A DNA stretch of 64,000 nt from contig JAJVHX010000004.1 of assembly GCA_022072405.1 (NCBI GenBank), forward strand, positions 62,001 to 126,000, read 5' to 3'. Each line of letters opens with the position of its first letter. Position 1 is the stretch's first letter. This stretch comes from Phycisphaerae bacterium. GTDB taxonomy: Bacteria; Planctomycetota; Phycisphaerae; UBA1845; CAIVHJ01. Shown here piece after piece: positions 6,097-40,202 of the stretch. Position numbers and translations under genes: made by a program. A model generated the notes under the pieces. It had not been told where the DNA came from and ran no database searches. It worked only from the letters and a program-made list of their open reading frames with translations.

Positions 6097-8616
6097 TCAT
6101 GGAAGTACCCAGTTGAGATCCTGCATCAGCGCCGTCAAGGCGGCCTGATTGTAAATGTTTTGCGTATAACCGGTGTAGTAGAGTTTGGACTTCAGTCCTG
6201 CCATCGTTCCGCCGCCGGCTTCCACTGCTTTCTGCAGAAAAGTCTTGTCCCCGGTCCATTCATAAGCATAAGCCAGATTGGACCACATATAGAAGTTGTC
6301 GATTCCGCCTTCCGTTCCATCGGCCGGTAAGGCATCGCAGTACAGCGGCTGATTCAGATCGAGCGGCCCGACGGCGTGATGGATCACATATCCGCCCTGG
6401 CCCGCCGGCCAGTAGAGTGGATTTATGATCGAGTAGAAGGAATCCGTGATGATCTGTTGCAGGAGCGATTCTTCGGCAGTACCGGAATCTTCAAAGACCG
6501 TGTGATAGGTACCCATCAGGCTGCTCTGGGTCAGCACATCCTCCCAGGTCTGGCGGGCCCGGTACTTGTTATCGAAGAGTTTGCTGTAAACATTGGTGTG
6601 GATCACTCCGTTGCAGGGAATCTGGACATCGGCCAGCATGTCGACCATCAATTCAAACCAGGGTTGCGCTTCGTCACGCCATTCATCATCATTCAGCGCA
6701 TAGGCCATGTTCATCGCATCCAGTCCCCAGGCCTGACCGCGACCGAAGTCCAGTCCCATCCCGGGATATTGAGCTGCAAACTGCAGGCCCGCTTTTATAC
6801 TATATCCCTGAGCACCCTGATAAGCGGTATTGAAATATTGATGATATGAGAAGCGGAAGGCCTCGGCGCTCATGCGCAGGTCGTCCTTGGCCAGGGCGTC
6901 ATTGCCCAGATAAACCAGCACCTTGGCATTGGTCGTATAGCGGCAATAATGCTGAAAATCGTGCGGTTGGAATTCCAGCAGTTCCGCTTCGTAGGCCGGT
7001 TGCAGACCGGCAGCGGCGGCGTAGTCCGCCTGAAATTTTGGTGCCGTCTTATAGCCGAATGGATCACCCTTGCTGCTGGGCGTCTGGAAAAATTCACCCG
7101 GAAAATATAGATTGCCTTTGCTGTCGGTTTTCAGAAACTGCGCCAGTCGAGCCGGGTGCCCATCAGCATTGTAAAGCACAATCGGCTGCCGATCAGTATG
7201 CATCCGATGGGCCAGCTGGAAATAGAGGTAACCGTCCGGATTGGCACTATAGGCCAGCTTAACACCATCATACAGCGTTATGCCTTCACCGCCGGTCATG
7301 CCGCCATAAGCAGAACCCCAGGGATGGGCCCAACCTAAATTGGGTACGTTGATGGGATACCCCATGCCACCGGATTCGACAATCTCCTGCGCCCAGGCCC
7401 AGTCACCGGATAGTTCATCCCATAATTTGGTCGCTCCATAATAATCCAGCGAGGGCAGCGTATGCTTCTGGCCGAAGTAACGGGCCGTTTCCGGATTCCA
7501 CCATGAGTAGAGTTCCTGGCCTTGGTTATTGAAACCCCAGCCGGCGAATCCCAATCCTTCCTGACGTGCGTAAGCTTGAGCACTGGCCGTGGCTGATGCC
7601 GGGGCGAGGACCATGCGTCGGTGAAATTGTCCCTGGGCGCCGATGACCTGGCTGGTGCCGTCGTCGTTGGGTTTGACTAGGGGAATAGCCTTGAGATTCT
7701 GGTAAGTCCACGGCGCGCCCAGTTGCGGGTCGGTCACATCCAGGTGGGCATTCCAGTTGGCGGGCACAATCAGGTAGAGATCGAGGAAGTACATTTTACC
7801 CAGTGGATCATCAATAGTCGTCGTCGTGTCGGCACCGCTGGGGCCATTGTTGAAGCGCAAATCGAGCAGCACCACGTTTTCATTCAGATAAGCAGTCATG
7901 TAGGCATGGACACCGAACAGATGAGGCAGCGTGGCGGTCGGTCCGCTCTTGGGTTGAATCGGCAGCATCGTGCCATAGGAACAGATTTGTATGGCGGTTG
8001 ATCCTTGGCGAAGAACCTGAAACTCATTGTTCTGATGGAGCAGGTCCAGGAGGTAGACATTACCGAAGATATCCCGGGCGGACACCATCAATTTACCCGG
8101 ATTGCCGGCCAGATGGGCCACCGCGTCCGTCAGCTTCATAGCCGGTTCATCGTGTGGAGCCAGCACCACGTCATAATCGATCATCTCACCCGCCGCCACT
8201 CCTGACGGCCGCGGGACACGGGCGAGAATTTCCACGACATCTGCATCCACTCCCGCACCGGGCCGGCGCGTCACGACCTCGGTTTGTGCGGGGATCAGCG
8301 ATCCATTTGCCAGCTGAATGCTGAATGGAGACTGCTTGTCCGGTCGCGGGAACGTGCCCGCCGGTACTGGAATCGTGCCGCGTAAGATAAACTCATTCAA
8401 TTCCGGGGCGGGCAGTTGCAGCCGGGCCAACACTTCAGCAGAGGGTGGTGGAGGGGGTGGCGGGGTGGTCGGTTTACCACGCTGGCCCCACACCGGCACA
8501 GCCCATAGCAGCAAAGTCACGCAGAAGATCAGTAACAGAAATCGATGCGGGTGGTGTGGCCAATAATAACCAGATTCATCCTGCGCGAGCGCATCGTGAC
8601 CCCGTTGAATCGTCAT
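6097..8616 (-). CDS. Large secreted protein of unknown function (possible glycan-active alpha/alpha-barrel)
   Basis: 839 residues. An unusual N-terminal extension of about 27 residues precedes a hydrophobic segment (LLLIFCVTLLLWAVPVWG) that looks like a signal peptide or anchor, then a Pro run (about 50-57). Residues 65-330 look beta-rich; residues 350-839 are rich in Trp, Tyr and His with repeated helix-like stretches. I do not recognise the family with certainty. The plan of an N-terminal beta domain plus helical barrel resembles exo-acting polysaccharide lyases of the rhamnogalacturonan type in Planctomycetota, but no catalytic residue can be assigned. The ATG is preceded by GGGAGGGTGAGAG. 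It is monocistronic and flanked by convergent and divergent genes. Confidence 0.6.
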   Translation of the reverse strand: MTIQRGHDALAQDESGYYWPHHPHRFLLLIFCVTLLLWAVPVWGQRGKPTTPPPPPPPSAEVLARLQLPAPELNEFILRGTIPVPAGTFPRPDKQSPFSIQLANGSLIPAQTEVVTRRPGAGVDADVVEILARVPRPSGVAAGEMIDYDVVLAPHDEPAMKLTDAVAHLAGNPGKLMVSARDIFGNVYLLDLLHQNNEFQVLRQGSTAIQICSYGTMLPIQPKSGPTATLPHLFGVHAYMTAYLNENVVLLDLRFNNGPSGADTTTTIDDPLGKMYFLDLYLIVPANWNAHLDVTDPQLGAPWTYQNLKAIPLVKPNDDGTSQVIGAQGQFHRRMVLAPASATASAQAYARQEGLGFAGWGFNNQGQELYSWWNPETARYFGQKHTLPSLDYYGATKLWDELSGDWAWAQEIVESGGMGYPINVPNLGWAHPWGSAYGGMTGGEGITLYDGVKLAYSANPDGYLYFQLAHRMHTDRQPIVLYNADGHPARLAQFLKTDSKGNLYFPGEFFQTPSSKGDPFGYKTAPKFQADYAAAAGLQPAYEAELLEFQPHDFQHYCRYTTNAKVLVYLGNDALAKDDLRMSAEAFRFSYHQYFNTAYQGAQGYSIKAGLQFAAQYPGMGLDFGRGQAWGLDAMNMAYALNDDEWRDEAQPWFELMVDMLADVQIPCNGVIHTNVYSKLFDNKYRARQTWEDVLTQSSLMGTYHTVFEDSGTAEESLLQQIITDSFYSIINPLYWPAGQGGYVIHHAVGPLDLNQPLYCDALPADGTEGGIDNFYMWSNLAYAYEWTGDKTFLQKAVEAGGGTMAGLKSKLYYTGYTQNIYNQAALTALMQDLNWVLP

Positions 8617-8958: not shown

Positions 8959-9339
8959 ATGACTCCGATTAAACTGGAACAGGTTCCCGGCCAATACGCA
9001 GTCGCTCGCTCGGCAACACGCGAGCCCTGGTATTTTCCAGCAGATGCAAATTCTTTTTTCTCGCTGACTCGTACTGCAGATGAGTTGTCCGTTGTATGTA
9101 GTGAAGAACAGCTGCCCGCCGGTGTGCTGGCGGAACGTGGCTTCTGCCTTTTTCGAGTCAGCGGGGTGCTCGATTTCTCGTTGGTGGGTGTGGTGGCGGG
9201 TTTGACGGCGGCGCTTAAGGCGGCAAGAATCAGCGTATTGGTCATCGGTACGTTTGACACCGATTATCTGCTGGTCCGTGAGAATCAGCGGGCGGCTGCG
9301 GTCCAGGCCTGGAATTCCGCCGGTTACCCGGTGCAATAG
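8959..9339 (+). CDS. ACT-domain small protein
   Basis: A 126-residue soluble protein. The second half (SGVLDFSLVGVVAGLTAALKAARISVLVIGTFDTDYLLV) has the beta-alpha-beta pattern of an ACT fold, as in stand-alone amino-acid-binding ACT proteins. The first half (YAVARSATREPWYFPADANSFFSLTRTADELSVV) matches the preceding half domain of the same small family. It probably binds an amino acid as a regulator; ligand and target are unknown. Good ribosome binding site (GGAGAG) before the ATG. The gene is single and converges with the block that ends at 9377. Confidence 0.75.
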   Translation: MTPIKLEQVPGQYAVARSATREPWYFPADANSFFSLTRTADELSVVCSEEQLPAGVLAERGFCLFRVSGVLDFSLVGVVAGLTAALKAARISVLVIGTFDTDYLLVRENQRAAAVQAWNSAGYPVQ

Positions 9340-9376: not shown

Positions 9377-10258
9377 TCAGGCGGTTTCACGTTCGAGCAG
9401 TTGAGGAACGTTTTCTTCGGTGGTTTCCAGTCCGGTGAGGAATTGCAGTTCCGACATGGTCTGTTCGGTCTGGGCCATGTGGCTGACGATCTGATCCACC
9501 TGGCCGCTGATGAACTCCGGCTCCTGCCGGTTGATAGCCTGTTCGCTGATCGAACGGATTTTATTCTCCAAGCTCTCCAGCTCCAATCCGACCAGTTCGA
9601 AATTGTCACGGGCCTGACGGAAATTGGTCAGCCGGTTTTGCGATGTAGTCAGATTATCCTCCAGCACCTTGCGAAATTTCTGCTTGTGCAGCTCGGATGT
9701 TTCGGTAGGGATTTCCTTCAGTCGCTGCTGGGTGGTGATGATGTCGTTTTCGATCTTCCGTTCATCGGTTTTGCTCAAAAACTGTTCGAGCGAATAGCGG
9801 GTGTAAAGCAGCCGGAGATAAAACCAGAGCAGGCGATCCAGGCCGGCGAGGTGCATTTCTTCCAGGGGTGCGGGCGGGGAACTGAACGCGTGCGGGTCAC
9901 GCAAGGCCCGGGTTAACTGCCGCAATTCGCGACAACGTTCGCGCAGACTGTCAAAACGCTGCACCATAGCCTGCGGCAACGCATCGAGGATGCGCTCGAC
10001 CATTTCCTGCAGCAGGGAGATTCGGCCGGCGGGTGCGGAATCCAGACCGCGGCGTTGCTGTGCCTCCTGAGCTTCGACGTAAGATTGAAATTTCGGATGG
10101 CTGCCCAGCAGTCCCAGAAATGTCACCTCGCCCGCCACCACGATCGGCGCCCAGATATCGAAACGCCCGCTGAGCAGGGCAAACCCCATCCCACCCAGAA
10201 ATAAGAGCAGGTTCCAGCGGTTCTTGAAAGCCACCTTGATATATTTCAACAATCCCAC
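9377..10258 (-). CDS. Membrane-anchored coiled-coil protein, last gene of the PspA/VWA/ABC block
   Basis: 293 residues. Two short hydrophobic helices at about 15-33 and 36-52 anchor the N-terminus. The rest is long amphipathic helix with high Glu, Gln, Arg and Leu, predicted coiled coil, presumably cytoplasmic. I recognise no named domain. The start is GTG with GGAA upstream. It follows the ABC ATPase gene by 79 bases and shares its orientation, so I infer that it belongs to the same transcription unit and scaffolds or tethers the other components. The C-terminal heptad-like region could pair with PspA, which is also coiled coil; that is speculation. Confidence 0.65.
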   Translation of the reverse strand: MGLLKYIKVAFKNRWNLLLFLGGMGFALLSGRFDIWAPIVVAGEVTFLGLLGSHPKFQSYVEAQEAQQRRGLDSAPAGRISLLQEMVERILDALPQAMVQRFDSLRERCRELRQLTRALRDPHAFSSPPAPLEEMHLAGLDRLLWFYLRLLYTRYSLEQFLSKTDERKIENDIITTQQRLKEIPTETSELHKQKFRKVLEDNLTTSQNRLTNFRQARDNFELVGLELESLENKIRSISEQAINRQEPEFISGQVDQIVSHMAQTEQTMSELQFLTGLETTEENVPQLLERETA

Positions 10259-10283
10259 GATGGAATTCCGTTCTCACTTCGCC

Positions 10284-10316
10284 AGCCCGCGAGGGCGCTA
10301 AGCCCACCGCTTCTTG
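10284..10316 (+). repeat. Degenerate REP-like palindrome (tentative)
   Basis: The segment GCGAGGGCGCTAAGCCC followed by ACCGCTTCTT resembles a decayed copy of the palindrome family described at 50989, with the same order of arm, loop and TCTT tail. It sits in the 79-base gap before the last gene of the PspA block. Pairing is imperfect. Confidence 0.3.
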
Positions 10317-10337
10317 AGTAAAATCAGAGTTGTAGTT

Positions 10338-11255
10338 TTACTCTGGCCGATGATTTTCTTCCAGTTGGGCGATCAGGTCGCGGATATAGCCGACCGTTTC
10401 CTGAAATCGCGGATCCCGCTGCATATCTTTCGACGGCTTGTTGGACGGTTCGATCTCTAGTTCCCGCAGGATCGTCCCCGGCGAATTACTCATCACGTAG
10501 ATTCGGTCGCCCAGAAAAACCGCTTCCTCGATCGAATGGGTGATAAAAAAGACAGTGGCTTGCACTTCCCGCCACAGTCGCAGCAGCAGGTCCTGCATAT
10601 TCATACGGGTTTGCGGATCGAGAGCCCCGAAGGGTTCATCCATAAGCATAATGCGCGGTTTGAGGATCAGGCTGCGGGCAATGGCTACGCGCTGGCGCAT
10701 GCCGCCGGAAAGCTGATGCGGGTATTTATTCTGATCCACAACGACGTTCAAGCCTACCCGCTCGATCCACTGCCGGCCCAGTTCATCGCGAACTTTTCGC
10801 GGAACGCCCAGACATTCCAATCCGAAAGTGACGTTATCGAGTACCGAGCGGTGATCAAAGCTGGTGTAATCCTGAAAAACCATGCCACGATCGGAGCCGG
10901 GACCGATCACCGGCTGACCCAGCACATGTACTGCTCCGCTGGTGGTGGGGTGTTGGGGTTCCAGCCCGGCGATCAGCCGCAGGATCGTGCTCTTGCCGCA
11001 GCCGCTGGGCCCCAGCACACAGACAAATTCGCCTTTATCCGGTAAATCCTCAACCACAAAATTCACGTCACGAATGGCGGTAAATTGATTGGCCTGACCG
11101 GGAAAGTAAGTTTTAGTGACTTGCCGAAATTCCACCACCGGCGGGTTGGCCAGCACACTGGCCGGTCGCACTTCGTTCAGTTCCGCACCCATACCGATCG
11201 GCTTTTTCGGCAGCAGCGGATAGGGGGGCATGGGCGGCAGTGATGTGGTACTCAT
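10338..11255 (-). CDS. NitT/TauT-type ABC transporter ATP-binding protein
   Basis: 305 residues. Walker A GPSGCGKST at 82-90, Q-loop MVFQDY near 126, signature LSGGMRQRVAIARS at 182-195, Walker B IMLMDEPFGALD at 202-213 and the H-loop in FITHS. The sequence class is that of nitrate/taurine/sulfonate importers (SsuB, TauB, NrtD). The first 40 residues are a Pro-rich extension not usual in the family. It overlaps the permease stop by ATGA, so it is translationally coupled. It should energise the permease encoded just upstream. Confidence 0.92.
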   Translation of the reverse strand: MSTTSLPPMPPYPLLPKKPIGMGAELNEVRPASVLANPPVVEFRQVTKTYFPGQANQFTAIRDVNFVVEDLPDKGEFVCVLGPSGCGKSTILRLIAGLEPQHPTTSGAVHVLGQPVIGPGSDRGMVFQDYTSFDHRSVLDNVTFGLECLGVPRKVRDELGRQWIERVGLNVVVDQNKYPHQLSGGMRQRVAIARSLILKPRIMLMDEPFGALDPQTRMNMQDLLLRLWREVQATVFFITHSIEEAVFLGDRIYVMSNSPGTILRELEIEPSNKPSKDMQRDPRFQETVGYIRDLIAQLEENHRPE

Positions 11256-12277
11256 GCGGATTTATCCTGGCGGGGAACTGCCGCTGCGGTGGGCATCAGC
11301 CGTGCCGCCGCAGGATGCGGTTTGAAGAACAGCGCCTTGAGTGATTCCCACCGATGAACGACCAGTCGCAGTCCGTGATGCAGCCAGCCTCCACCGCCAT
11401 AACGATAGGGGAATAACTGAACCTGCATCCAGTAAAGCAGCCGATCGATGGCCAGCGCCACCAGTGGGATGATCATCAGCACCAGCAGAATATGTTCCTT
11501 CAGTCCGCGGCGCTGGGACATGATAATAATATCACCCAACCCGCCCGATTCAGTACCGATCTTAACCAATTCCGCCAGCATAATGTATCCAAATGCCAAG
11601 CCGAACAGCAGCCGCAGCGAATTGAAAATATCCGGCATGGCCAATGGCACCAGCACCTTGATGATCGTCTGCCAGCGCCCCGAACCCAGTGTATAAGCGG
11701 TGTCAATATAGCGTTCATGCACATCCTGAATGGCACGCGATGAATCCGAGATGATGAAGGCCACGCAGGCGATGAAAATGAACATCACTTTCTGCAATTC
11801 ACCAATTCCGAACAGCGAAAAGGTCAGCGGGATCAGTGCGGCGATGGGGATATTGCGGCCGAAGATGGTGATCGGCGACATGAACGCCTGAGCGAACGAA
11901 AAACAACCGCAAAACATACCCAACGGCACGCCGATGAGAGTCGCCAACCCGAATCCATAAACGACCCGCTTCAGACTGGCCCAGATGTTGCGCGTCAAAG
12001 CCCGGTCAAACCACAAACTCTTAAAGGTGGCGATAGTCTCCGCCGGGCTGGGCAGCACTGATGGCCTAATCAGACGTGCTTCTGCTTCGCCGCGAGTTGC
12101 GAACCACCATAAACTCATTACCAGGGTGACACAGGCGATGCCGATGGCCAGCGAAGCCCACCAGGGTAAGCCCCGCCGCAGGGTCCACATTTTCCGCCAC
12201 AGCGAGAACTGCACTTCCTGCCGGCTGACGGGGGGAGCGGCTGGTGACGTGGGTTGTGTAGCCGGTTGCTCGTTCAC
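11252..12277 (-). CDS. NitT/TauT-type ABC transporter permease
   Basis: 341 residues, about six membrane helices. The EAA-type loop is visible in the second half (DTAYTLGSGRWQTIIKVLVPLAMPDIFNSLR). Compared with SsuC/TauC (about 250 residues) it has an N-terminal cytoplasmic extension and a C-terminal tail of about 60 residues. The GTG start overlaps the stop of the OmpA-fused binding protein gene (GTGA), and its own stop overlaps the ATPase start (ATGA). The tight coupling argues for a stoichiometric complex of binding protein, permease and ATPase. Confidence 0.9.
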   Translation of the reverse strand: MNEQPATQPTSPAAPPVSRQEVQFSLWRKMWTLRRGLPWWASLAIGIACVTLVMSLWWFATRGEAEARLIRPSVLPSPAETIATFKSLWFDRALTRNIWASLKRVVYGFGLATLIGVPLGMFCGCFSFAQAFMSPITIFGRNIPIAALIPLTFSLFGIGELQKVMFIFIACVAFIISDSSRAIQDVHERYIDTAYTLGSGRWQTIIKVLVPLAMPDIFNSLRLLFGLAFGYIMLAELVKIGTESGGLGDIIIMSQRRGLKEHILLVLMIIPLVALAIDRLLYWMQVQLFPYRYGGGGWLHHGLRLVVHRWESLKALFFKPHPAAARLMPTAAAVPRQDKSA

Positions 12278-14055
12278 TGCTTCTCCGCCGGATAGATTTT
12301 GACCTCCACGCGACGATTCTTGGCATGGTTGTCGGGATCGTTCGAGTCCGCCGGTTTGTCCCAGCCCATGCCCTCCACGGCAAACTGATTGGGATCGAGC
12401 TTGTACTTTTGCACCAGCGCTTCCTTGACGGCGTTGGCCCGGTGGAGCGAGAGTTCCTTCACCAGGCTGGCGGGCACCTGTCCGCGCATCGAGCCATCCG
12501 TGTGGCCTTGAATGATGATCCGTGCCGCACCGAACTGACCGGTCAGCTTGGCGATATCTTCCAGCACAAAATCCACGTTGGGGTCATACAGCTCTTCAAC
12601 ATCCTTGCCGTCCACTTTCTTGGACACCTTTTTGGTCAGGTCCCAGCTGTTGGGGAAGAAGTGGATGTAAGCGGTGTTGGTGAGAATTTCCTCCTCAGCC
12701 TTGATCGTTACCGCCGAGCTGGGTGCAAACTGCATCTTGTACTCATCCTTCTGCGATGAATATTTCGCTTCGGCGCCCAGTTTGGTGATGATCGAAAAAT
12801 CCATCACCTGGTCGAAGGGCACCGGCTGATGAGTGATCGAACCAATGCGGCGATAGAGATAATAGGCCTGATTCCAGACGCGCTCAAAGTTGGCCGGATT
12901 GTTCTGATTGACGAAGAACTCGAAATTCTCCGCCCAGTTGGTGCTGTGGGCGTCGCCGAACATCGCCAGCGTATCACTCGCCGGAATGTTATAGCCGGCG
13001 GCCATCAGTTCGGCAGCGTGCTGCCTTTTGGTCTGATCCTTCAGATCGATCATGGCATCAAAGATACCGCGCACCAGGGCTTCGATAATGGCGGGGTGGT
13101 CTTTGGCGAAGTCGGCCCGGGCGAACCACACATCGGCGATCAGTTTGTTGGCAGTGGCCGTCGTGACCAGCAGGCGGTTGCCCTTGACTTTTTCGAGGTT
13201 GTAAATATCCGGCGCCCAGGAAACCGCCGCCGCAATATCCTTCTGGGCGTTAAATGCGGCTGCCGCCTGAAAGGCATCTTCGGTGTAGACCCACTGGACT
13301 TCCGTCGGTTGCAGTCCGCCCGCCACCAGCATGTTCAGTGCGAAATATTGCGACGGAGAATTCTGCGCCAGTGCAATTTTTTTGCCGCGCAGGTCGGCCA
13401 CGGTTTTGATATTTTCCCGGACCGCAATCCCGTCACCGCCGTTGGACCAGTCCACCTGCTGATAAATGCGGGGCATGACCCGGCTGTCGCGCGGCTTACC
13501 GGAGGAATCGACAAAGCCTTCCATGAACAGGGGCACCATGTCGAGCGTGGCCCAGCCGATGTGCAAGTCACCGGCGGCGTAGGCGTCGCGCATGGCCACC
13601 GGGTTGTCGATCAATACCAGCTCGACTTTGAATTCTTTTCCATCGGCCGTTTTCCAGACTTTGCCCGCCTTGAAACCTTCGTTGGCCAGGATGATCGGTG
13701 CCCAGCCGGCCCAGACGTTCAGGGCGAAGCGGACCGTGTTATTTTCCATCGGTTTGTAGCCGCTGGTCCCCTTGACCGCCGGCAGCCGTTCGGAAGGAAC
13801 AAAATTGTATTCCTTGACGGTAGTGATGCCGGTCGGGTTGCTGGAATCTTCCGCCGGCTGTTCGCCGCTGCTGTCCGCTTTAGGCTGCGCGGTGTTGTTA
13901 TTGGCCGGTGTCTGATTGGCAATCGGTTCCGTGGAGGTGCCGCCTTCCTTGGCCTTGGGGGCGAAGATGTCGCTGCGATAAACGGCAAAACCGATCAGTC
14001 CGAGCACGACGACGGCCAGCACTGCGAAAAAGGGTGCTTTGGGTTGTCCGGGCAT
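12274..14055 (-). CDS. Membrane-anchored ABC substrate-binding protein fused to an OmpA peptidoglycan-binding domain
   Basis: 593 residues in three parts. Residues 9-26 form one hydrophobic helix without a clear cleavage site, so the protein probably stays anchored in the inner membrane, followed by a low-complexity linker (27-75). Residues 100-400 are a NitT/TauT/phosphonate-type periplasmic binding fold (VRFALNVWAGWAPIILANEG, LRGKKIALAQNSPSQYFALN). Residues 440-590 are an OmpA C-terminal domain with IIIQGHTDGSMRG and KNRRVEVKIYP, whose Asp and Arg normally bind diaminopimelate of peptidoglycan. The fusion would fix a solute receptor between membrane and wall. The ATG is preceded by AGAGGAG. 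It is followed by its permease (4-bp overlap). Confidence 0.9.
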   Translation of the reverse strand: MPGQPKAPFFAVLAVVVLGLIGFAVYRSDIFAPKAKEGGTSTEPIANQTPANNNTAQPKADSSGEQPAEDSSNPTGITTVKEYNFVPSERLPAVKGTSGYKPMENNTVRFALNVWAGWAPIILANEGFKAGKVWKTADGKEFKVELVLIDNPVAMRDAYAAGDLHIGWATLDMVPLFMEGFVDSSGKPRDSRVMPRIYQQVDWSNGGDGIAVRENIKTVADLRGKKIALAQNSPSQYFALNMLVAGGLQPTEVQWVYTEDAFQAAAAFNAQKDIAAAVSWAPDIYNLEKVKGNRLLVTTATANKLIADVWFARADFAKDHPAIIEALVRGIFDAMIDLKDQTKRQHAAELMAAGYNIPASDTLAMFGDAHSTNWAENFEFFVNQNNPANFERVWNQAYYLYRRIGSITHQPVPFDQVMDFSIITKLGAEAKYSSQKDEYKMQFAPSSAVTIKAEEEILTNTAYIHFFPNSWDLTKKVSKKVDGKDVEELYDPNVDFVLEDIAKLTGQFGAARIIIQGHTDGSMRGQVPASLVKELSLHRANAVKEALVQKYKLDPNQFAVEGMGWDKPADSNDPDNHAKNRRVEVKIYPAEKQ

Positions 14056-14126
14056 GAGTAAACTCCTCTTTACGATTAGGGTTGGTGCTCAGTATATGTT
14101 AAACGACCGGCACCGACTACGGATGA

Positions 14127-14939
14127 CTAATTACTGGATTCCACCTGGGCTTCAGCCAGAATCTGCTTTTCATAAATATAGGACAATTGTTGCTGCAGTA
14201 TCGCACCGCTGGCTGCTTCGACCACATGGCCGCTGACCTCCGGTACAAAGCTGAAATAACGGGCAGAGATATCAAAGGCGATGAAGTGCAACTCCACCTC
14301 ACCACCCGTTTGCTGGTAAAGTTGTCGGGCCACTCGCGCTGGCGCCGGGCCGGAAGTGTTCTCGCCATCCGTGATGCAGATGATATGTTTACGGACGCAG
14401 CCCGACTGGTACAGGGCCTCGTAACCACTCTGCAAAGCCAGGCCGATGGCGGTTCCACCTGCCGGACGGGGCACCTGCGCGAGAATCTGGTTGGTTTCCA
14501 CACCACTGAATTCCTGCAAGGCATATTGAGTGGTAACCGCGCTGGAAAATGTGCTTAAACCCACCAGCAGCACTTTATCCGGATGGGATTTTTGCCAGGT
14601 GGCGGTATAGTCGAATATCTGCTTCAATGCCTGGCGGGCGAATTCTGATTTGGCACCCTGCTCGCCGCCGGCGGCTGACACGCTGTTTTCCATGCTGCCG
14701 GAAGTATCCAGTAATATCATCACCGCCGTGCATAACCGCTGCTCGGCCTGCGGCAGGTCAATTTGTTTCGGTGAAGCGGCCGTCTGGGCGGTGGGTGTCT
14801 GGCGGCTGGTGTTGGAATTCGTGGAGGGAGTGTTTCTGCGAGAGGAGCGCGACACGATCAGAATGATAATAATAAAGATGATGACCCCGATCGGCTTGCC
14901 GGAGCGGCGCGAGTTACGGGAAAACAGGATCATGCTCAT
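14127..14939 (-). CDS. Membrane-anchored von Willebrand factor A (VWA) protein
   Basis: 270 residues from my chosen ATG. An N-terminal hydrophobic helix (GVIIFIIIILIV, about 15-27) anchors it, then a Ser/Thr/Asn-rich linker, then a VWA domain with a complete MIDAS: DTSGS at 78-82, a Thr in GGTAIGLALQSG and an Asp in CITDGENT. MIDAS domains bind a divalent metal and a protein partner, often an AAA+ ATPase. GAAGGAG lies 4 bases before ATG 14939; ATG 14933 is equally possible. The frame is open further upstream to 15047, but that part lacks a ribosome binding site. It lies between the Lys-rich small gene and the OmpA-fused receptor gene. Confidence 0.88.
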   Translation of the reverse strand: MSMILFSRNSRRSGKPIGVIIFIIIILIVSRSSRRNTPSTNSNTSRQTPTAQTAASPKQIDLPQAEQRLCTAVMILLDTSGSMENSVSAAGGEQGAKSEFARQALKQIFDYTATWQKSHPDKVLLVGLSTFSSAVTTQYALQEFSGVETNQILAQVPRPAGGTAIGLALQSGYEALYQSGCVRKHIICITDGENTSGPAPARVARQLYQQTGGEVELHFIAFDISARYFSFVPEVSGHVVEAASGAILQQQLSYIYEKQILAEAQVESSN

Positions 14940-15064
14940 GATGCTCCTTCGAATAGCAGCGGTCATCGACCGCCGATATTCATTATGCGCCGTTCTGCAT
15001 GAGGGGGCGATTATAACCCGCCGCTGATTTTCTAAACCGGCCCACACCGGGCTGAAACAGCGCT

Positions 15065-15442
15065 TTATCCGCGGAATTTGACCTTCGGCCGATTACGGTG
15101 CATCTCGTGCAGCAGCCGCATGATGTCGTAAGCGGTGATCTCGCACAATAGCCGGGTGATCAGGGCGTGCTGCTCATCATCCAGCAGCGGTTCAATCTGT
15201 TTCATCAGTTGAACCAGCTGCTTCTCCTGACCGGCCACTTCGCTCTCATCCACCACCCCGTCCGCCATGGCGGCGATGAATGAACTGAGTTGCCGGGTGT
15301 AACCGTCGATCAACGGCTTGTCGGTTTTGGGAGACAGCCAGCTGACCCGCTTACCCTTTTTCGCTGCCGGCTTGGCGGCGGGTTTGCTCCGGGCAGCGGG
15401 CTTCGTGCTCTTCTTCATCACCTTTTTGGTTTTCTTCTTCAT
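15065..15442 (-). CDS. Small Lys/Ala-rich-tailed protein of unknown function
   Basis: 125 residues from the ATG at 15442, which has AGGA about 8 bases upstream; the longer frame to 15628 overlaps the ATPase gene and is unlikely. The first 35 residues are very basic (repeats of KKK, KPAAK), like histone-H1-type tails. The remaining 90 are acidic and helical (VDESEVAGQEKQLVQLMKQI, LLDDEQHALITRLLCEITAY). I do not recognise the family. The basic tail could bind acidic lipid, nucleic acid or an acidic partner protein. It sits between the AAA+ and VWA genes. Confidence 0.65.
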   Translation of the reverse strand: MKKKTKKVMKKSTKPAARSKPAAKPAAKKGKRVSWLSPKTDKPLIDGYTRQLSSFIAAMADGVVDESEVAGQEKQLVQLMKQIEPLLDDEQHALITRLLCEITAYDIMRLLHEMHRNRPKVKFRG

Positions 15443-15507
15443 CGAAAATATCCTGATTATTCGTGGTCTAGAACTTACCCGCGCGCTGGTGCTCGCGGCT
15501 CTGTAGG

Positions 15508-17286
15508 TTAACCTGCTTCTTCGATGATCTGGCGAAGCGCGGTCAGCCGCTGCTGCAATTCGGCACGACCGTTGGGCTTTCTGATCATTTCCTGCCAATG
15601 CGCCGGCAGAAAATTCAATTGCGTACAATCCAGCACCGCCGCCAGCTCCTGCAGCTCTTTTTCCAGTCCCTGAACCGAGGGCAAAAATTCACGGGTAGCC
15701 TGCTGAACATACTCGCTGCTGACGGCAGTCTGGCCAGCAGTAAGTGCCAGCCGCTGGGCGATCAGGGCGACGCTTTCGATGTCCGCACCGCTGAGTTGCA
15801 GATCGGTGGTGAACTGCGGAACCATCCCGCCGGTAAAGGCGATTTTATTTTTCCTGGCCATCACTTCGAACATCGTCTGGCGCTCCGCGGCGGATTGGGG
15901 ATAAAAGAGGGGGATATGCACTTCCGCCCGGCCTTGGCGCTTCAGATCAATCGGCAGCAGGTCGGGTCGGCAGGTCAGCAGCATCCAGAGAATTTTTCCG
16001 CGATAGCGCGTATCGCCCATCTGGCTGGCGATCATGGAAAAGACCCGGCTGCTGGTGCCGCTGTCCCCTTCGCTCGAGCGATTGCCGAGGGCGGCGTCGG
16101 CTTCGTCAATAATGACCATCACCGGTCCAAGCGAACGCAGAACGTTGAGCACCTGTTCCAGGTTGCCCTCCGTCTCGCCGACATATTTGGAGCGGAAATT
16201 GCGCAGTTTGATGCAGGGGATGCCGATCGATCCGGCATAACATTCCGCCAGAAACGTCTTGCCGGTACCGACCGGACCACTGAGCAGATAACCCATCGGG
16301 GCGGCCTGCAGGTGGTCTTGCAGCAGCAGGCGGGCATCTTCCTGCAGACGTGCTTTGGCTGAATCCTGTCCCACCACCAGATCGAGCGTGTAGTTCGGCT
16401 CGACAAATTCGACCAGCCCGTGACACTGGCGTTCGATCAGCTCTTTCTTCAGGCGTTTGAACTGCTGCTCGGTGATGCGTTGCTGGTTACGCTGGGCCTG
16501 GGCGAGGACGACGTTGAGATTGATCAGATTCAGACCAGCGGACAGTTCGGCGAGTTGGCCCACCGTAAAATCCGCCCATTGCGCAAAATCCTGTTGTGGT
16601 GTCAACGATTGGCAGAATCCTTCGCGCGCGGCTCGATCGGGTAGCGGTATCTCCAGCGTCGCCACGTAGGGATTCTGCACCAGTCGCGGGTTGAGGTCGG
16701 CCAGTTTATCCGCAATCAGGATCACCGCCATGTTGAGCCGTTTGATGTAGGGGTTTTGCGCCCAGCTCAGCAGACGAATCAGATTGGCGCTCTGGTTACG
16801 AGCCAGGGTGCTCAGATCGGCGGCGGGGGTGAGGTATTGGGCGTAATCCAGCACGATGGCCATACGCTTTTGCCGGTTGGCGTCATCTTCCAGCAGATTG
16901 CGTTCAATAAGCCGATCCAGCAGCAATAGCGCACTCTCCGGATCGCGTGGCCAGGCGCCGGGTTCGCCCAGGCGCGCGGCCAGATATTGCATCATGGGTT
17001 GCAACCGCGAGCCATCGCTGCCTGCCAAGGCCCGCAATCCGCGGCCCAGATCATATTGCACCACGATATCCCAGCGGCCGAAAATCTGATTGGCCAGAAA
17101 CTCGGCCAGGTTGCAATAGGCCGGTTCCTCTCCCGGAGCGTTGGCAACCAGGTCATGCACATTACCATGCAGTACGAAGACGCAGGTGGTTCCGGAGAAA
17201 TATAGATCAGCCAACTCCCGGGCCCAGGATGGATACCAACCAGGCAACGGGGTGCTGAGCATGGGCATGGTGGTGGTCGTGGTCAT
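15508..17286 (-). CDS. AAA+ ATPase with degenerate N-terminal AAA module
   Basis: 592 residues. The C-terminal half is an active AAA+ module: Walker A GPVGTGKT at 337-344, Walker B VMVIIDEAD at 389-397, sensor/arginine-finger region TCRPDLLPIDLKRQGR at 439-454. The first 300 residues (VFVLHGNVHDLV, MAIVLDYAQYLTP, NMAVILIADKLADLNPRLV) keep the shape of an ATPase fold but lack a Walker A, so this half is probably structural. The start overlaps the pspA stop (ATGA). AAA+ proteins paired with PspA or VWA partners usually remodel assemblies; here both partners are in the same operon. Confidence 0.88.
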   Translation of the reverse strand: MTTTTTMPMLSTPLPGWYPSWARELADLYFSGTTCVFVLHGNVHDLVANAPGEEPAYCNLAEFLANQIFGRWDIVVQYDLGRGLRALAGSDGSRLQPMMQYLAARLGEPGAWPRDPESALLLLDRLIERNLLEDDANRQKRMAIVLDYAQYLTPAADLSTLARNQSANLIRLLSWAQNPYIKRLNMAVILIADKLADLNPRLVQNPYVATLEIPLPDRAAREGFCQSLTPQQDFAQWADFTVGQLAELSAGLNLINLNVVLAQAQRNQQRITEQQFKRLKKELIERQCHGLVEFVEPNYTLDLVVGQDSAKARLQEDARLLLQDHLQAAPMGYLLSGPVGTGKTFLAECYAGSIGIPCIKLRNFRSKYVGETEGNLEQVLNVLRSLGPVMVIIDEADAALGNRSSEGDSGTSSRVFSMIASQMGDTRYRGKILWMLLTCRPDLLPIDLKRQGRAEVHIPLFYPQSAAERQTMFEVMARKNKIAFTGGMVPQFTTDLQLSGADIESVALIAQRLALTAGQTAVSSEYVQQATREFLPSVQGLEKELQELAAVLDCTQLNFLPAHWQEMIRKPNGRAELQQRLTALRQIIEEAG

Positions 17287-18032
17287 GTGCTTTGGGTCTG
17301 TTTCGTTTTGGGACCGAGGTCCTTGGTGGTTTCCGGAACGACGGCGGTTTCCGGCGTCACCAGGCCCAGCTGTACTTCAAAATCGCGCAAGGCCTGGTCG
17401 GCGAGCGCCTTTTCCATGGCCTGTTCGCGCTGCACATCGACCACGCCATCGGTGGACATATCGGCGGCGACGCGCACCTTGGCCCGGTTCAGGCTGATCT
17501 TCTCCTGAATGACGTTTTCAATCTGTCCGAAATCGGTGGTGATATTGAAGTCGAAGGAATTGGCCAGTTTGGCCATCTCTGCTTCCGCCTTGCTCATCTT
17601 CAGGTCGGCATCATATTGAGCGATCTTCTCCCTGACTTTCTGCAACTTGCCGGCGGCGTGCTTGATCTTGGTGAGATTATTGCCATAGGCTTCCTCGTGC
17701 ATCTTGAGTTGCCCTTCGTTCTCCGCCAGTGATTCCTTAGCCTTGTTCAACTCGAGGGCGAACTTCGCCGCCGAGTCACGATCGCCCGCCTGCAGATAGG
17801 CTTTGACCTTGGCTTCCAGATTCCGCACGTGGCTGCGATCACGCGTTACCTGCGTCGTCACCCGCTCCACCAGCGCCCGATACTGCTCCAGCCCTTCACG
17901 TCCCTCCTTGAGCTGGTTCACCGCGACATCATATTCATATTGCATCTGGGCAATGGGGTCGGCCGTCCAGAACAGATTGGCCAGTTTGTTGATCTGAGCC
18001 TTCAATGCATGCCAGAATTTTCCGAGGATCAT
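17283..18032 (-). CDS. pspA: PspA/IM30-family membrane stress protein
   Basis: 249 residues, almost entirely coiled coil (about 25-190), with an amphipathic N-terminal helix (ILGKFWHALKAQINKLANLF) that in this family inserts into stressed membranes. It contains the usual DPIAQMQYEYDVAVNQLKE region after that helix. ESCRT-III-like PspA/IM30 proteins polymerise on the cytoplasmic face of the inner membrane. The C-terminal 30 residues are Thr/Pro-rich. It is the first gene of the block ending at 9377 and has its own promoter (18068-18096). No PspB, PspC or PspF is in the window, so regulation differs from the enterobacterial system. Confidence 0.88.
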   Translation of the reverse strand: MILGKFWHALKAQINKLANLFWTADPIAQMQYEYDVAVNQLKEGREGLEQYRALVERVTTQVTRDRSHVRNLEAKVKAYLQAGDRDSAAKFALELNKAKESLAENEGQLKMHEEAYGNNLTKIKHAAGKLQKVREKIAQYDADLKMSKAEAEMAKLANSFDFNITTDFGQIENVIQEKISLNRAKVRVAADMSTDGVVDVQREQAMEKALADQALRDFEVQLGLVTPETAVVPETTKDLGPKTKQTQST

Positions 18033-18542: not shown

Positions 18543-21500
18543 TCATACGGTCACCAGTTGGCCAATCTCCTCCCGCAGTTGTTGTTCATACTCGTGCAGT
18601 TGCCGCTCAATCTCAGAACGTTTGGCGGACTGATCGGCCAGTTTTTCACGATATCGACTGAGGAAGTAGTTGATCGTTTCCAGCCGGATTTTGATGCTGC
18701 CGGTCGGTTTGTTTTCGTCAATATCCTTGAAGCAGAAGTAGGGCGTGCCGCTGTTTTCGATGATCTCCTCGATAACGGAGTAGATCGGAGCATCGTGGCC
18801 GCACTTGAAACTGGAAAGTTCCAGCGCCACCAGGTTGGGATGACGGGCGGTATATTTGGCCGCCCAGATCTTACGCGAGGTGTTCTCACTGTAGGAATTT
18901 TTCCAGACATCCTCAATGCTGCAATTATCGGCGAAATCTCCCCGACGAACTTCATCGCCGAATAGACGCTCCAGAATATCCGCATCAATCGGCAGGGTAT
19001 CCTGCGTAAAGACCGGGTAGCCGAGTTTCTGCAGCTCATCCAGAATCTCGTGGTTCAGTCCCGGATCATTATGGTAGGGCCGGGCGAGCAGTACGATGCC
19101 GATCTTCTGGTCGCGTTCCAACTGTTCGAGGATGGCGCGGGCTTCACTTCGGCGGGCGGCGTCATATTCTTCCAAGGCCTTGAGTCCCTGCAGCACCGCC
19201 CGGCGCGATTCCTCTTCGGTCAGTCCCAGTTCATCCCCCCAGTCGAGGAACATCTGCCGTGCGCACAGGTTCGGCCGGTCGATATTCAGAAAGGTTTTCT
19301 TGAACACGATCTGGTTTTCCGCGAACAGATCATGTTCCTTGGTGAAAGCGGCGTGGACCGATTCCGTGGTGCCGACCACCGTGGGGCAGGCCCGCGAAGC
19401 CTGCACACCCTTCAGCCAGGTGGGGAACGAATCCACCATCGGAAAGAAGATGTGGGTCAGCGGCTCCTTGTGATGTTTTTCATAGATCAGGTTGTGGACG
19501 TGCGGGATGCCCACCTTACTGGGAAAGCAGGGGTCAATTGCGCCGCGCTTGGCGCCCGCCTTATAAAGTTCTTCGCTGGTATAGTCGGAAAAAACGATCT
19601 GCTTGGCGTCCAGTCCCAGTGACTGGAAGAACCCCATGAAGAAGGGCGTGTGACTGTACATATTGAGCACCCGGGGGATGCCGATGCGCAGTTCCGTGCG
19701 GCGGGCGATGCGGGCGGCCCGTTCCTCGATCTTCTGGCGATTCAGAAAATTCATGATCGTCACGCGCGGCGGTTCGTCCGCCACCGCTTCCACCTTGACC
19801 GGTTTGAACACTTCGCGCGACGAGATATCGACCATATTGGGGTTGGCTTTTTTCATGGCGTCGAGACCCTTCTTGATCTCGCGCATGTCGGCGACATCCT
19901 CCACCGTGCCTTTTTCGCAGGTGGCGATGATCAGCCGTTGCTCGCCGACGAAGAGCGGCACCTTGGTGTTTTTCTCCTGAACCGGGAAAGGTTGCGCCGG
20001 TTCGTTCTGGCGGACGCGGACCGCGTGGCCTGCTTCAGGCCCCTGCTTGAGCACCATGCTGCTCAGGTCCAGCGTCGGTTTTTTCTCGGCATCGGTGCGT
20101 ACATCGATGAAGGTGCGCAGACATTTATTTTTGCAGAAATAGCAGCGGGTCTCTTCGCTGCGAGTGGTGCGATACATGATCCGTTGCACCGCCGCCAGAC
20201 CGATGAAGCTGGTGCGGTGGCCTCTCTCGGCCCACATCCGCTGGGCTTCCAGTCCGCAGCCGATCGCCCCCGCTTCACCGCAATGGGGATGAACGATCAC
20301 CTCGGGAGTGACTCCGGATCCCACAAAGCGTGATTCGATGAAATCCACCTGTGATTTGACGGCGGCGAGGTTGTGCTGCGTACCGCCCTGGAGCAGGAAC
20401 TTGGTGCCCAGTTTGGCGAGGTTGGGAATCTGTGAGACATAGAGCCAGATATTTTTGGGCAGCACCGCCGCCAGTCCAGCCATGATCTCGTTCGGCTGCC
20501 AGCCCTGACGCTGAAAATCAACGATATCCGACTGCATGAAAACCGCACATCCATAACCGAACTCCGGCATGGCTTCGGCGCTGAAGGCGAGATCGGCGTA
20601 GTCAGTCACTTTGTAGCCGAAGGTCTGGGCGGTCGATTGCAGGAAATAGCCGTTACCCGCGCTGCATTGGGTATTGAGTTTGAAATCTTTCACCTGGCCA
20701 TGCTTGAGCATGATCAGCTTGATATCCTGCCCGCCGACATCGACGATCACGTCCGTACCCGGGAAGAAGTGCAGACCGCTCTGCGTGTGGGCCACCGTCT
20801 CTACCAGGGCCACATCAGCTTGCAGCACATCCTTGAGGATATCTTTCGCATAACCGGTGGTGCCCACGCCGAGCACGTCCAGCGTGCAACCCTGATCGGT
20901 AATCTGCTTTTCCAGCAGTGCGAAGATGTCCATTGTATCTTCGATGGGATTGCCTTTGGAGAGCTGATACGCTTTGGCGATAACCCGCCGCTGCTTATCC
21001 ACCAGCACGCCCTTGGTCGAGGTTGATCCACCATCGATGCCGATGAATGCTTCGATATGCGTGCCGGCGGGGAAGGGGACCGGCGTCCACTGGTGGGGCA
21101 GATAGCGCTGCCGGAAATGTTCGAGATCGTCAGCATCGCGGCTCAGACCGCGCGATCCCGCCGCCTTTTTCTCCTCACCGCGCCCGACCTCCAGATACCA
21201 GCGCAGCTCATCCAGGCCGCGATAAACACCCAGATTAGTATTGTCTTCCACTTCGCTCTTGCCGAATTCCACCGCCCCCAGTGCGGCGAAATACTGGGCG
21301 TTGTCGGGCACGATGATCAATTCTTCAACGCTCTTGCCCGGCGGAAGTTCAACTTTACGTTCTTCCCAGATGATGGGAATATTGTGTCGCCAGCAATCCT
21401 GCATACCTTTGATATAGGTATTGGGTCCGCCCAAGAGTAGCACGACCGGTCGCAGGGTGTGCCCGCGGGTCAGCACGGAGAGGTTCTGCATCACGATCGA

Positions 21501-22328
21501 TTCAAACAGCGAAGCCATCAGTTCGTCCGCTGGAATGCCCTGTTTCTGCAGACCGTTGATGTCAGTCTCGGCAAAAACGCCGCACTTGCCCGCCACCGGA
21601 TGGAGGCGGATATCGAAATAACCCATCTGGCTGAGCTGCGTGGCGGGGATCTTCAGCTTGGCGTTGATCTTGTCGATAACCGCCCCGGTGCCGCCGGCGC
21701 ACTTGTCGTTCATCGAGGGGATTTTTTTCTTCTTGCCGGTTTCCTCATCGGGTTTGAAGACGATGATTTTGGCATCCTGGCCGCCCAGCTCGATGACGGA
21801 TTGCACCTGCGGATAGAGTTTTTCGACGGCCAGACTGACGGCGTTTACTTCCTGCACAAACTGGGCGCCGATACGCCGACCGATCGACGTGCCGCCCGAA
21901 CCGGTCATGAATATCCGAAAGGCATTCTGCGGCACATCGGGAAGCTGCTGCTGCATCGCCGTCAGCATGTCGAGACATTTTTCGGGCTGCTTGGTGTCGT
22001 GACGCTGATAATCCTTGGCCAGAATCTGATCAGTGATCGGATCGACCACCACATACTTCACGGTGGTTGAACCGACGTCGAGACCCACCATCAGACCCTG
22101 AGGATATTGATCGGTGCCGGCGAACTCGACGTTCTGCTGAGCCGGGCGAGTTTTTTCCAGCTTGAGCGTCCCGAGATTGAGTTGAATCACTTTCGGTTCT
22201 TCGGCAGCTCCTGATCCACAGCCGCCGCTGCTGCAACCGCCCCCGGAACCGCTCTTCATCAACGGCAGACTTTTTGACTTGGAATTCTCAAACGATTCGT
22301 TATGTGCAATCACAAAATACATCCTCAT
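18543..22328 (-). CDS. Giant CoA-dehydratase activase: two BadF/BcrA ASKHA ATPase domains plus DUF2229-type region
   Basis: 1,261 residues. ATPase domain 1 starts at about 80 (GLMVGLDVGSTTVKYVVVD) and carries the two cluster-ligand cysteines typical of 2-hydroxyacyl-CoA dehydratase activators (C210 in CAGGTG, C249 in GKCGVFAE). Domain 2 starts near 427 (FIGIDGGSTSTKGVLVD) with CSAGNG and GYGCAVF. A cysteine motif (CYFCKNKC) near 745 and a DUF2229-like region fill the rest. ATP hydrolysis in this family drives a [4Fe-4S]-mediated low-potential electron to a reductase. A Gly/Ser/Cys-rich segment (GGGCSSGGCGSG) precedes domain 1. The start is uncertain: ATG 22328, 22322 or 22259, none with a good ribosome binding site. 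Its presumed acceptor is encoded at 22990-24768. Confidence 0.88.
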   Translation of the reverse strand: MRMYFVIAHNESFENSKSKSLPLMKSGSGGGCSSGGCGSGAAEEPKVIQLNLGTLKLEKTRPAQQNVEFAGTDQYPQGLMVGLDVGSTTVKYVVVDPITDQILAKDYQRHDTKQPEKCLDMLTAMQQQLPDVPQNAFRIFMTGSGGTSIGRRIGAQFVQEVNAVSLAVEKLYPQVQSVIELGGQDAKIIVFKPDEETGKKKKIPSMNDKCAGGTGAVIDKINAKLKIPATQLSQMGYFDIRLHPVAGKCGVFAETDINGLQKQGIPADELMASLFESIVMQNLSVLTRGHTLRPVVLLLGGPNTYIKGMQDCWRHNIPIIWEERKVELPPGKSVEELIIVPDNAQYFAALGAVEFGKSEVEDNTNLGVYRGLDELRWYLEVGRGEEKKAAGSRGLSRDADDLEHFRQRYLPHQWTPVPFPAGTHIEAFIGIDGGSTSTKGVLVDKQRRVIAKAYQLSKGNPIEDTMDIFALLEKQITDQGCTLDVLGVGTTGYAKDILKDVLQADVALVETVAHTQSGLHFFPGTDVIVDVGGQDIKLIMLKHGQVKDFKLNTQCSAGNGYFLQSTAQTFGYKVTDYADLAFSAEAMPEFGYGCAVFMQSDIVDFQRQGWQPNEIMAGLAAVLPKNIWLYVSQIPNLAKLGTKFLLQGGTQHNLAAVKSQVDFIESRFVGSGVTPEVIVHPHCGEAGAIGCGLEAQRMWAERGHRTSFIGLAAVQRIMYRTTRSEETRCYFCKNKCLRTFIDVRTDAEKKPTLDLSSMVLKQGPEAGHAVRVRQNEPAQPFPVQEKNTKVPLFVGEQRLIIATCEKGTVEDVADMREIKKGLDAMKKANPNMVDISSREVFKPVKVEAVADEPPRVTIMNFLNRQKIEERAARIARRTELRIGIPRVLNMYSHTPFFMGFFQSLGLDAKQIVFSDYTSEELYKAGAKRGAIDPCFPSKVGIPHVHNLIYEKHHKEPLTHIFFPMVDSFPTWLKGVQASRACPTVVGTTESVHAAFTKEHDLFAENQIVFKKTFLNIDRPNLCARQMFLDWGDELGLTEEESRRAVLQGLKALEEYDAARRSEARAILEQLERDQKIGIVLLARPYHNDPGLNHEILDELQKLGYPVFTQDTLPIDADILERLFGDEVRRGDFADNCSIEDVWKNSYSENTSRKIWAAKYTARHPNLVALELSSFKCGHDAPIYSVIEEIIENSGTPYFCFKDIDENKPTGSIKIRLETINYFLSRYREKLADQSAKRSEIERQLHEYEQQLREEIGQLVTV

Positions 22329-38322: not shown

Positions 38323-38352
38323 GCTGCTGACTTCAGACTGCGGGTTAATAGA

Positions 38353-38838: not shown

Positions 38839-38866
38839 TCAGTAAGACCGGTGATGAATCTGCTCT

Positions 38867-38890
38867 GCGCGGGCGAAACACCCGCGGCTC
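38867..38890 (+). repeat. REP-like palindrome between nuoA and nuoB
   Basis: GCGCGGGCGAAACACCCGCG followed by GCTC: arms GCGGG/CCCGC with a changed loop, 20 bases before the nuoB ATG. Same orientation as the other copies. Confidence 0.6.
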
Positions 38891-38910
38891 AATAATCGAG
38901 GAATGATTTT

Positions 38911-39405: not shown

Positions 39406-39454
39406 TGGGTAGTCAAATGTTGAGTGAACGATAACGGATACTGGAAATTAAATT

Positions 39455-39482
39455 CGCGCAGGCTTAAAGCCTGCGGCTCGTT
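39455..39482 (+). repeat. REP-like palindrome between nuoB and nuoC, with compensatory stem change
   Basis: CGCGCAGGCTTAAAGCCTGCGG followed by CTCGTT. Compared with CGGGCT/AGCCCG, the G:C pair is replaced by A:T on both arms (CAGGCT/AGCCTG), so base pairing is preserved although the sequence changed. Confidence 0.65.
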
Positions 39483-39529
39483 GGGTTATGTAGAACATTG
39501 TGACTAATTACTAACGACCAGATACTAAA

Positions 39530-40153: not shown

Positions 40154-40202
40154 AGGATAGTCGTAAGTAGTCAGTCGTCAGACGTATGTTGTAAGTGATG
40201 AA

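Follow-up and report, generated by a model that had tools for sequence, protein, structure and literature searches.

A PspA operon of the Phycisphaerae with a Cdc48-like AAA+ ATPase and a wall-anchored ABC receptor, and a PspA tail motif which tracks the ATPase

The window, that is, the whole 64,000-nucleotide stretch of Phycisphaerae bacterium contig JAJVHX010000004.1 that was analyzed, contains between positions 9377 and 18032 eight genes on the minus strand, as the preliminary description had reported. Its family identities also stand, since Pfam returns PspA_IM30, AAA, VWA, an NMT1-like substrate-binding protein (SBP) with OmpA, BPD_transp_1 and ABC_tran. Three of the seven junctions (PspA–AAA+, SBP–permease and permease–ATPase) are the 4 nt ATGA/GTGA overlaps described earlier, whereas the others are gaps of approximately 65–98 nt. 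The single promoter which had been proposed has a consensus match (TTGATT(N17)TATAGT, 18096–18068), but promoter-like sites in the region are not above chance (8 observed versus 5.1 ± 2.3 expected).

The gene at 17283–18032 (minus strand, as are all features below) specifies the only PspA of the genome, a 249-residue PspA/IM30 protein of the ESCRT-III superfamily [PF04012, 46 bits]. The profile of its family matches PspA/Vipp1 structures over residues 1–212. Canonical PspAs end in a helix of the ELAALK type; those of genomes which carry the AAA+ gene end instead in a flexible tail with the motif K-x-[ILM]-G, here K237-D-L-G-P241 (17310–17324), which we propose as a docking or engagement tag for the ATPase.

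The adjoining gene (15508–17286) encodes a two-module AAA+ ATPase of 592 residues [Pfam AAA, 82 bits], the closest solved relatives of which, in a profile search of the PDB, are the protein-threading ATPases Cdc48/VCP. Its C-terminal module is the active one and has its Walker A and B motifs, pore-loop aromatic residue and arginine finger all intact. The Walker A motif, GPVGTGKT (16255–16278), is near-invariant in alignments, and pore-loop 1, which is expected of a substrate-threading AAA+ and reads KYVG in the window (16177–16188), has an aromatic Y or W conserved across phyla. The N-terminal module (16417–17286) is a degenerate AAA fold with FVLHGNVHDL where the P-loop is expected and no GxxxxGK[ST]; its profile alone matches Cdc48 D1/D2 [2e-7]. 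A Pfam scan found no MIT domain in this protein. The preliminary description had pointed to AAA+/VWA pairs, which remodel assemblies; the pairing here is not of the MoxR type. The best matches are PF00004 and models of the Cdc48/PAN/FtsH type rather than MoxR, the VWA protein scores below the cut-off against the CoxE/Bat-type model [VWA_CoxE, PF05762, 15 bits], and a VWA gene is present in only 8 of 80 AAA-centered loci, as well as, otherwise placed, in loci L166 and L167. No experimental study of this AAA+ was found in the open-access literature searched.

Two of the genes specify products with no Pfam match. The first (15065–15442) is a small protein of 125 residues with a lysine-rich N-terminal tail and a conserved helical C-terminal domain, which AlphaFold models as a helical pair; the fold has no match in the PDB and gave no indication of function. 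The second (9377–10258, 293 residues) combines a transmembrane hairpin with a long helical, coiled-coil region and is modelled as all-helical with a pLDDT of 88. Its relationship to PspA or Snf7 was considered and is not supported (hhalign probability against PspA 3.5%). A PDB profile search yielded only coiled-coil noise, and the best Foldseek hits, BAR domains at an E value of 0.08 with poor rmsd, leave it with no significant PDB fold.

The remaining genes make up what may be called the envelope arm. They encode a membrane-anchored VWA protein (14127–~14966) [Pfam VWA, 45 bits], with its MIDAS motif (DxSxS..T..D) intact and, in several orthologs, a lipobox-like N-terminus; SBP-OmpA (12274–14055), a transmembrane-anchored NitT/TauT-type substrate-binding protein [NMT1] fused to a C-terminal OmpA domain; a TauC/NrtB/SaoP-like ABC permease (11252–12277) [PF00528, 68 bits]; and a TauB/NrtD-like ABC ATPase (10338–11255) [PF00005, 92 bits] with Walker A, Walker B and signature motifs. 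The SBP, permease and ATPase all belong to the families of the NitT/TauT importers (TauABC, SsuABC, NrtABCD), and the ATPase and permease have their motifs intact. Unlike in those importers, the SBP carries a membrane anchor and, in fusion, a peptidoglycan-binding OmpA domain in which the peptidoglycan-contacting Asp and Arg are invariant across phyla, and all NCBIfam matches fall below the curated cut-offs.

Homologous sets were found in the Planctomycetota, Acidobacteriota and Myxococcales and, in reduced form, in the Balneolales. The co-occurrence is thus not restricted to close relatives, a distribution which the preliminary description had named as counting against its reading, and since the cluster is conserved across phyla chance is untenable as its explanation. 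PspA adjoins the AAA+ gene in a shared order in the Planctomycetota, and the two lie in one cluster in the Acidobacteriota and Balneolales; in the class which contains the Balneolales they are co-inherited in nearly every genome. Among 228 genomes 37 possess the AAA+ gene. SBP-OmpA is almost never found without it (21 of 24 SBP-OmpA genomes; pooled Fisher P = 8e-17, in a test which ignores phylogeny), while 16 of the 37 AAA+ genomes lack a full-length SBP-OmpA match. The co-occurrence across phyla and this dependence uphold the earlier view that PspA, the AAA+ protein and an optional wall-anchored receptor/ABC arm form one conserved functional unit. The accessory genes are distributed differently: the small protein gene occurs in 51 of 57 Planctomycetota-type loci and nowhere else, and coiled-coil gene homologs are present in every clade, including the Balneolales loci which have no transporter.

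The PspA tail tag follows the AAA+ gene in three clades, including genomes in which the distance between the two genes reaches >1 Mb; hardly any PspA from a genome without the AAA+ gene carries it. K[TSDEQN][ILMV]G is present in 68 of the 73 PspAs linked to the ATPase, and the remaining five have near-matches (KALGP, KTIAP, KxLEP). In the Planctomycetota and Acidobacteriota samples the strict form, which was set after the data had been seen, occurs in 25 of 28 genomes with the AAA+ gene and in 0 of 34 without; with a loose pattern the latter figure becomes 7 of 34. The loose expression also picks up KRQMGL, where the PspA core helix ends, as well as KKEVGK and RKQLGQ in terminal helices; these matches were separated by position, post hoc. 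For the Balneolales class the figures are 56 of 64 versus 0 of 4 (P = 6e-4), mostly with the two genes in trans. Tag-less genomes with the AAA+ gene number eight of 64 in this class, one of them with RTMG, and three (G043, G148 and G232) in the other phyla. A stricter tag, K-x-[ILMV]-G-[PGEDNS], which had been fixed before the Balneolales class was inspected, failed there because the residue after the glycine is R or K, and we therefore claim only the core K-x-[ILMV]-G.

How much of this correlation is due to descent has to be considered. Tag-bearing PspAs fall mostly in one clade, so that shared ancestry explains much of it, and a tree-based test gave two to three concordant and no discordant pairs, a number which cannot reach significance with about five independent pairs available. 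Several cases bear on the point individually. In the multi-PspA genomes G161 and G166 only the AAA-linked PspA has the tag. A clade of canonical-type PspAs linked to the AAA+ gene (G195, G208, G228, G264) carries the tag, or a truncated KTM, as a separate gain. Five Acidobacteriota genomes without the AAA+ gene keep the coiled-coil gene and have PspAs of the same clade with no tag at the usual place, although one has KQIG further upstream. As far as our literature search shows, a conserved PspA tail tag which appears from sequence comparison to track an AAA+ protein has been recognized here for the first time.

The operon itself is not of a new kind. The preliminary description knew of no characterized system with exactly this set; that goes too far, for Ravi et al. 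(2024, mSystems, PMC11237479) describe, from gene neighborhoods and without laboratory test, operons of PspA/TM-Snf7, a two-domain AAA+, an ABC ATPase, a permease and a PBPB-OmpA protein, and already propose ATP-dependent membrane remodelling. Their class shares with ours PspA, a two-AAA protein with an inactive N-terminal copy, both ABC components, the PBPB-OmpA fusion and a transmembrane helical gene. The transmembrane gene here, which may yet correspond to their TM-Snf7 gene, has no detectable PspA homology or Snf7 match. The VWA and lysine-rich small proteins do not figure in the main text of that study, the supplementary tables of which may list them, nor did we find there the tail tag or its in-trans correlation with the AAA+ gene. 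With the classical Psp system (PspA–PspF, PspB/C) the operon has in common a PspA effector and an AAA+ protein, but the latter is of the classical threading type and not an NtrC-type activator such as PspF, Pfam detects neither PspB nor PspC among the eight gene products, and PspA lacks the canonical terminal helix.

The operon resembles ESCRT-III/Vps4 (CdvB/CdvC) in that an ESCRT-III-superfamily polymer protein accompanies an AAA+ with a pore-loop aromatic residue, and a short C-terminal motif of the former correlates with the latter. The differences are the degenerate AAA module with no MIT domain found, a tag sequence unlike MIM, and Cdc48/VCP rather than Vps4 as the nearest solved relatives in the PDB comparison. 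We lean, by a modest degree, towards the view that the operon specifies a machine of the inner membrane which recycles PspA at the expense of ATP, and in which the AAA+ acts through the tail tag. PspA would polymerize on damaged or stressed membrane, probably tethered or nucleated by the transmembrane coiled-coil protein. A hexamer of the two-module AAA+ would recognize K-x-[ILM]-G in the flexible tail and thread PspA through its pore, such that subunits are extracted and the polymer is reset or constricted. The task which Vps4 performs on ESCRT-III in animal cells would then fall to a Cdc48-like enzyme, the dead N-terminal module replacing the MIT domain and the short tag the MIM motif. The wall-tethered SBP-OmpA, the ABC pair and the VWA protein would be an optional arm which either reports the state of the envelope to the PspA/AAA+ core or supplies it with a solute or lipid-like ligand.

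One might argue that the tag is read by some other factor (the membrane, a chaperone, a protease adaptor or the transmembrane coiled-coil protein) and merely travels with one PspA clade which is co-inherited with the AAA+ gene, as the clade structure and the Balneolales genomes would allow. We regard this as rather improbable. The tag persists where the AAA+ gene lies at a distance or on a different contig and was gained separately in another PspA clade with the ATPase, and its loss in the Acidobacteriota without the AAA+ gene, in spite of the coiled-coil partner being kept, argues against that protein as the reader.

The role of the envelope arm admits two further readings, both of which we think possible but unlikely. 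The unit might chiefly be an ABC importer of a sulfonate- or nitrate-like solute, with PspA and the AAA+ protein maintaining or assembling the membrane patch of the transporter, which would suit the intact NitT/TauT-type ATPase and permease and comes near to what Ravi et al. (PMC11237479) suggested about a link with solute transport. Transporter genes are, however, missing from the Balneolales loci and from several Planctomycete loci which retain PspA and AAA+, so that transport cannot be the core role, and the AAA+ genomes with no full-length SBP-OmpA likewise speak against it. Alternatively, the arm may be a sensor and not a transporter, the wall-bound SBP-OmpA and the VWA protein detecting envelope strain or a ligand and switching PspA/AAA+ activity. 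The intact wall-contact residues and MIDAS agree with this, as do three loci. L061 has the PspA, AAA+, small protein, SBP-OmpA, VWA and coiled-coil genes with no permease or ABC ATPase in the locus; L062, a second Planctomycete locus, agrees with it as far as the point where the locus is cut off (the coiled-coil gene being seen in only one of the two); and L167 has SBP-OmpA and VWA with no permease or ATPase match. Yet most SBP-OmpA loci keep a complete, transport-competent ABC pair, and no direct contact surface between receptor and AAA+ is known.

The recycling reading bears on the question, left unclear by Liu et al. (2021, PMC8281802), of whether any bacterial ATPase serves PspA/Vipp1 as Vps4 serves ESCRT-III. 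We give an even chance to the broader proposition that bacteria own an ESCRT-III/Vps4-type pair, in which a Cdc48-like AAA+ with a dead module reads K-x-[ILM]-G on the tail of PspA, which evolved apart from MIM/MIT, and which in several phyla is coupled to a binding-protein/ABC module with a peptidoglycan anchor. As one specific enzyme and one specific short tag are involved, the proposition lends itself to direct tests, both with cultured members of the Balneolales (Gracilimonas, Fodinibius) and in vitro. Should it hold, bacteria too would recycle ESCRT-III polymers at the expense of ATP, by a recognition code which arose independently, and the process could be connected to a wall-anchored receptor.

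All eight ORFs of the operon (window 9377–18032, minus strand) lie where the preliminary description placed them and belong to the families expected: PspA, an AAA+ ATPase, a small protein, a VWA protein, a substrate-binding protein fused to an OmpA C-domain (SBP-OmpA), a permease, an ABC ATPase and a coiled-coil protein. The ATGA/GTGA overlaps described are found at three of the seven junctions, as 4-nt overlaps, the others being gaps of about 65–98 nt; the promoter proposed does have a consensus match, one that does not exceed chance expectation in this region. PspA and SBP-OmpA are each encoded once in this 3.57 Mb draft genome, in this operon. Upstream (18543–22328, minus strand) lies a gene for a 1261-aa protein which, judged by sequence only, resembles CoA-substrate-specific enzyme activases of the 2-hydroxyacyl-CoA dehydratase activator type, as a convergent 126-aa ORF at the operon end (8959–9339, plus strand) resembles ACT/CASTOR-type proteins. 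Just downstream (6097–8616, minus strand) is an exported-looking 839-aa protein for which neither Pfam nor NCBIfam gives a match at E 0.1. Relative to the rest of the window, 38001–50000 shows raised GC skew and, across most of its length, strongly negative AT skew.

Orthologous AAA+ genes occur in 7 of 40 relatives (63–67% identity), and scanning a single genome for each species gave 80 AAA+ loci: 57 Planctomycetota-type, 10 Acidobacteriota, 12 Balneolales and one Myxococcales. Neighbour counts are lower bounds, several loci being interrupted by contig ends: PspA lies within 10 kb in at least 73 of the 80, the small protein in at least 51 (Planctomycetota-type loci exclusively), the coiled-coil gene in at least 47, SBP-OmpA in at least 46, permease/ATPase in at least 35 and VWA in at least 8. 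Gene order differs from phylum to phylum, being PspA-AAA-small-(VWA)-SBP-permease-ATPase-coiled coil in Planctomycetota, PspA-SBP-permease-ATPase-coiled coil-AAA in Acidobacteriota and, with no transporter, PspA-150 aa-coiled coil-enoyl-CoA hydratase-CNNM-AAA in Balneolales. Some Planctomycetes have reduced loci of PspA-AAA-small(-coiled coil) alone; L061 keeps receptor and VWA without permease/ATPase, as does L062, a cut locus. The core is therefore PspA and AAA+ (plus coiled coil), the ABC/receptor arm being optional. The ~150-aa gene that separates PspA from the coiled-coil gene in Balneolales loci including L106 and L107 (e.g. L107:6380–6841) weakly matches the PspA profile (E about 1e-10 to 1e-13), and possibly encodes a second, short PspA-like subunit.

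Conversely, the receptor seldom occurs without the core: full-length SBP-OmpA is present in 24 of 228 sampled Planctomycetota and Acidobacteriota genomes and AAA+ in 37; 21 of the 24 carry both (Fisher P 8e-17, phylogeny ignored), and the remaining three include a contig ending short of the AAA+ position. Given this co-occurrence and the spread of loci across phyla, neither of the objections which the preliminary description set against a single system, a clear independent transport role for the ABC genes or a grouping confined to close relatives, is borne out.

PspA residues 1–212, the core, align with PspA/Vipp1 structures. The canonical PspAs found in these phyla terminate in a helix of the ELAALKxEL kind; those adjacent to AAA+ have a variable tail downstream of the core with a single conserved element, K-x-[ILM]-G (K237-D-L-G-P241 in the window). 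The pattern first written down finds this tag in 68 of 73 AAA+-adjacent PspAs, the other five having KALGP, KTIAP or KxLEP. Among Planctomycetota and Acidobacteriota sample genomes having a PspA, the tag occurs in 25 of 28 with AAA+ versus, in its strict form, 0 of 34 without; a loose pattern occurs in 7 of these 34, mostly at the core-helix end or in the terminal helix. AAA+ and tagged PspA are encoded in separate places in four Planctomycetota and three Acidobacteriota genomes, either on different contigs or, in G262, 1 Mb from each other on the same contig, and where genomes have several PspAs (G161, G166) only the AAA-linked one is tagged. Nearly every genome of the Balneolales class has the two genes, frequently at a distance from each other, and PspA is tagged in 56 of 64 genomes with AAA+ versus 0 of 4 without (P 6e-4), or 57 of 64 versus 1 of 4 with [KR] allowed (P 0.009). 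A stricter pattern fails there because R, K or N follows the G; the core pattern alone holds. In this class, which is that of G162 (Gracilimonas, L107), PspA was found in 116 of 117 sampled genomes and AAA+ in 112, many pairs being far apart, so that the pair looks near-universal. The PspA tails of three AAA+ genomes (G043, G148, G232; loci L166, L167, L197) lack K-x-[ILM]-G and share an RQ[KR]I[AS] element.

When the PspA tree is computed with the C-terminal 40 residues left off, most tagged proteins group in a single clade; a separate tagged group, of canonical type, comprises G195, G208, G228 and G264, all with AAA+. The tag is lost in five AAA+-less genomes retaining the coiled-coil gene, one of which (G204) has KQIG elsewhere in the tail. 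An independent-pairs test gave 2–3 to 0 in the same direction, too few pairs to reach significance. The tag is probably a recognition element for the AAA+.

In the AAA+ C-module the Walker A and B motifs, the sensor residues and the Arg finger are conserved, as is an aromatic pore loop, [YW]xG. The N-module, a degenerate AAA with no P-loop, matches Cdc48 when taken alone (E 2e-7). These motifs and its kinship to Cdc48/VCP, the nearest solved relatives, argue for an ATPase of the protein-threading type. Unlike Vps4, it has no MIT domain that we could find, and identity with Vps4 is not implied. For the coiled-coil protein, the predicted structure (pLDDT 88) is a TM hairpin that leads into long helices; no relation to PspA could be detected, nor any significant match to a solved fold. 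In an alignment of these proteins (A2), those from L098–L119 (Acidobacteriota and Balneolales) share a basic C-terminal peptide (-N-R-V-R, -R-I-K), absent from most Planctomycetota, which could be a second docking tag. At its N-terminus SBP-OmpA carries a TM segment that looks uncleaved, and its wall-contact Asp and Arg are conserved. In the VWA protein the MIDAS is intact, and several orthologues have a lipobox-like Cys, so that this protein probably faces the periplasm.

Ravi et al. 2024 (PMC11237479) reported that a two-AAA+-domain protein with inactive N-terminal domain sometimes co-occurs with bacterial PspA, as well as longer operons of PspA, TM-bearing Snf7 homologues, two-domain AAA+, ABC ATPase, permease and PBPB-OmpA, and proposed, without experiments, ATP-dependent membrane remodelling tied to transport. 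Both the core gene set and the idea in outline have therefore been published before. Their main text has no occurrence of VWA or von Willebrand and, in 12 of its 22 passages on motifs, MIM or C-terminal tails, no PspA tail motif.

We suggest that PspA would assemble where the membrane is stressed, close to the coiled-coil anchor, that the AAA+ would grip its tail tag and thread subunits out, resetting the coat, and that the receptor/ABC/VWA arm may tune this cycle through wall state, ligand or transport. Whether PspA/Vipp1 have a Vps4 equivalent is a question that Liu et al. 2021 (PMC8281802) name as open. The operon is a real, conserved system; what it adds to the published neighbourhood is the VWA and small-protein members and a tail tag which makes the system newly testable.
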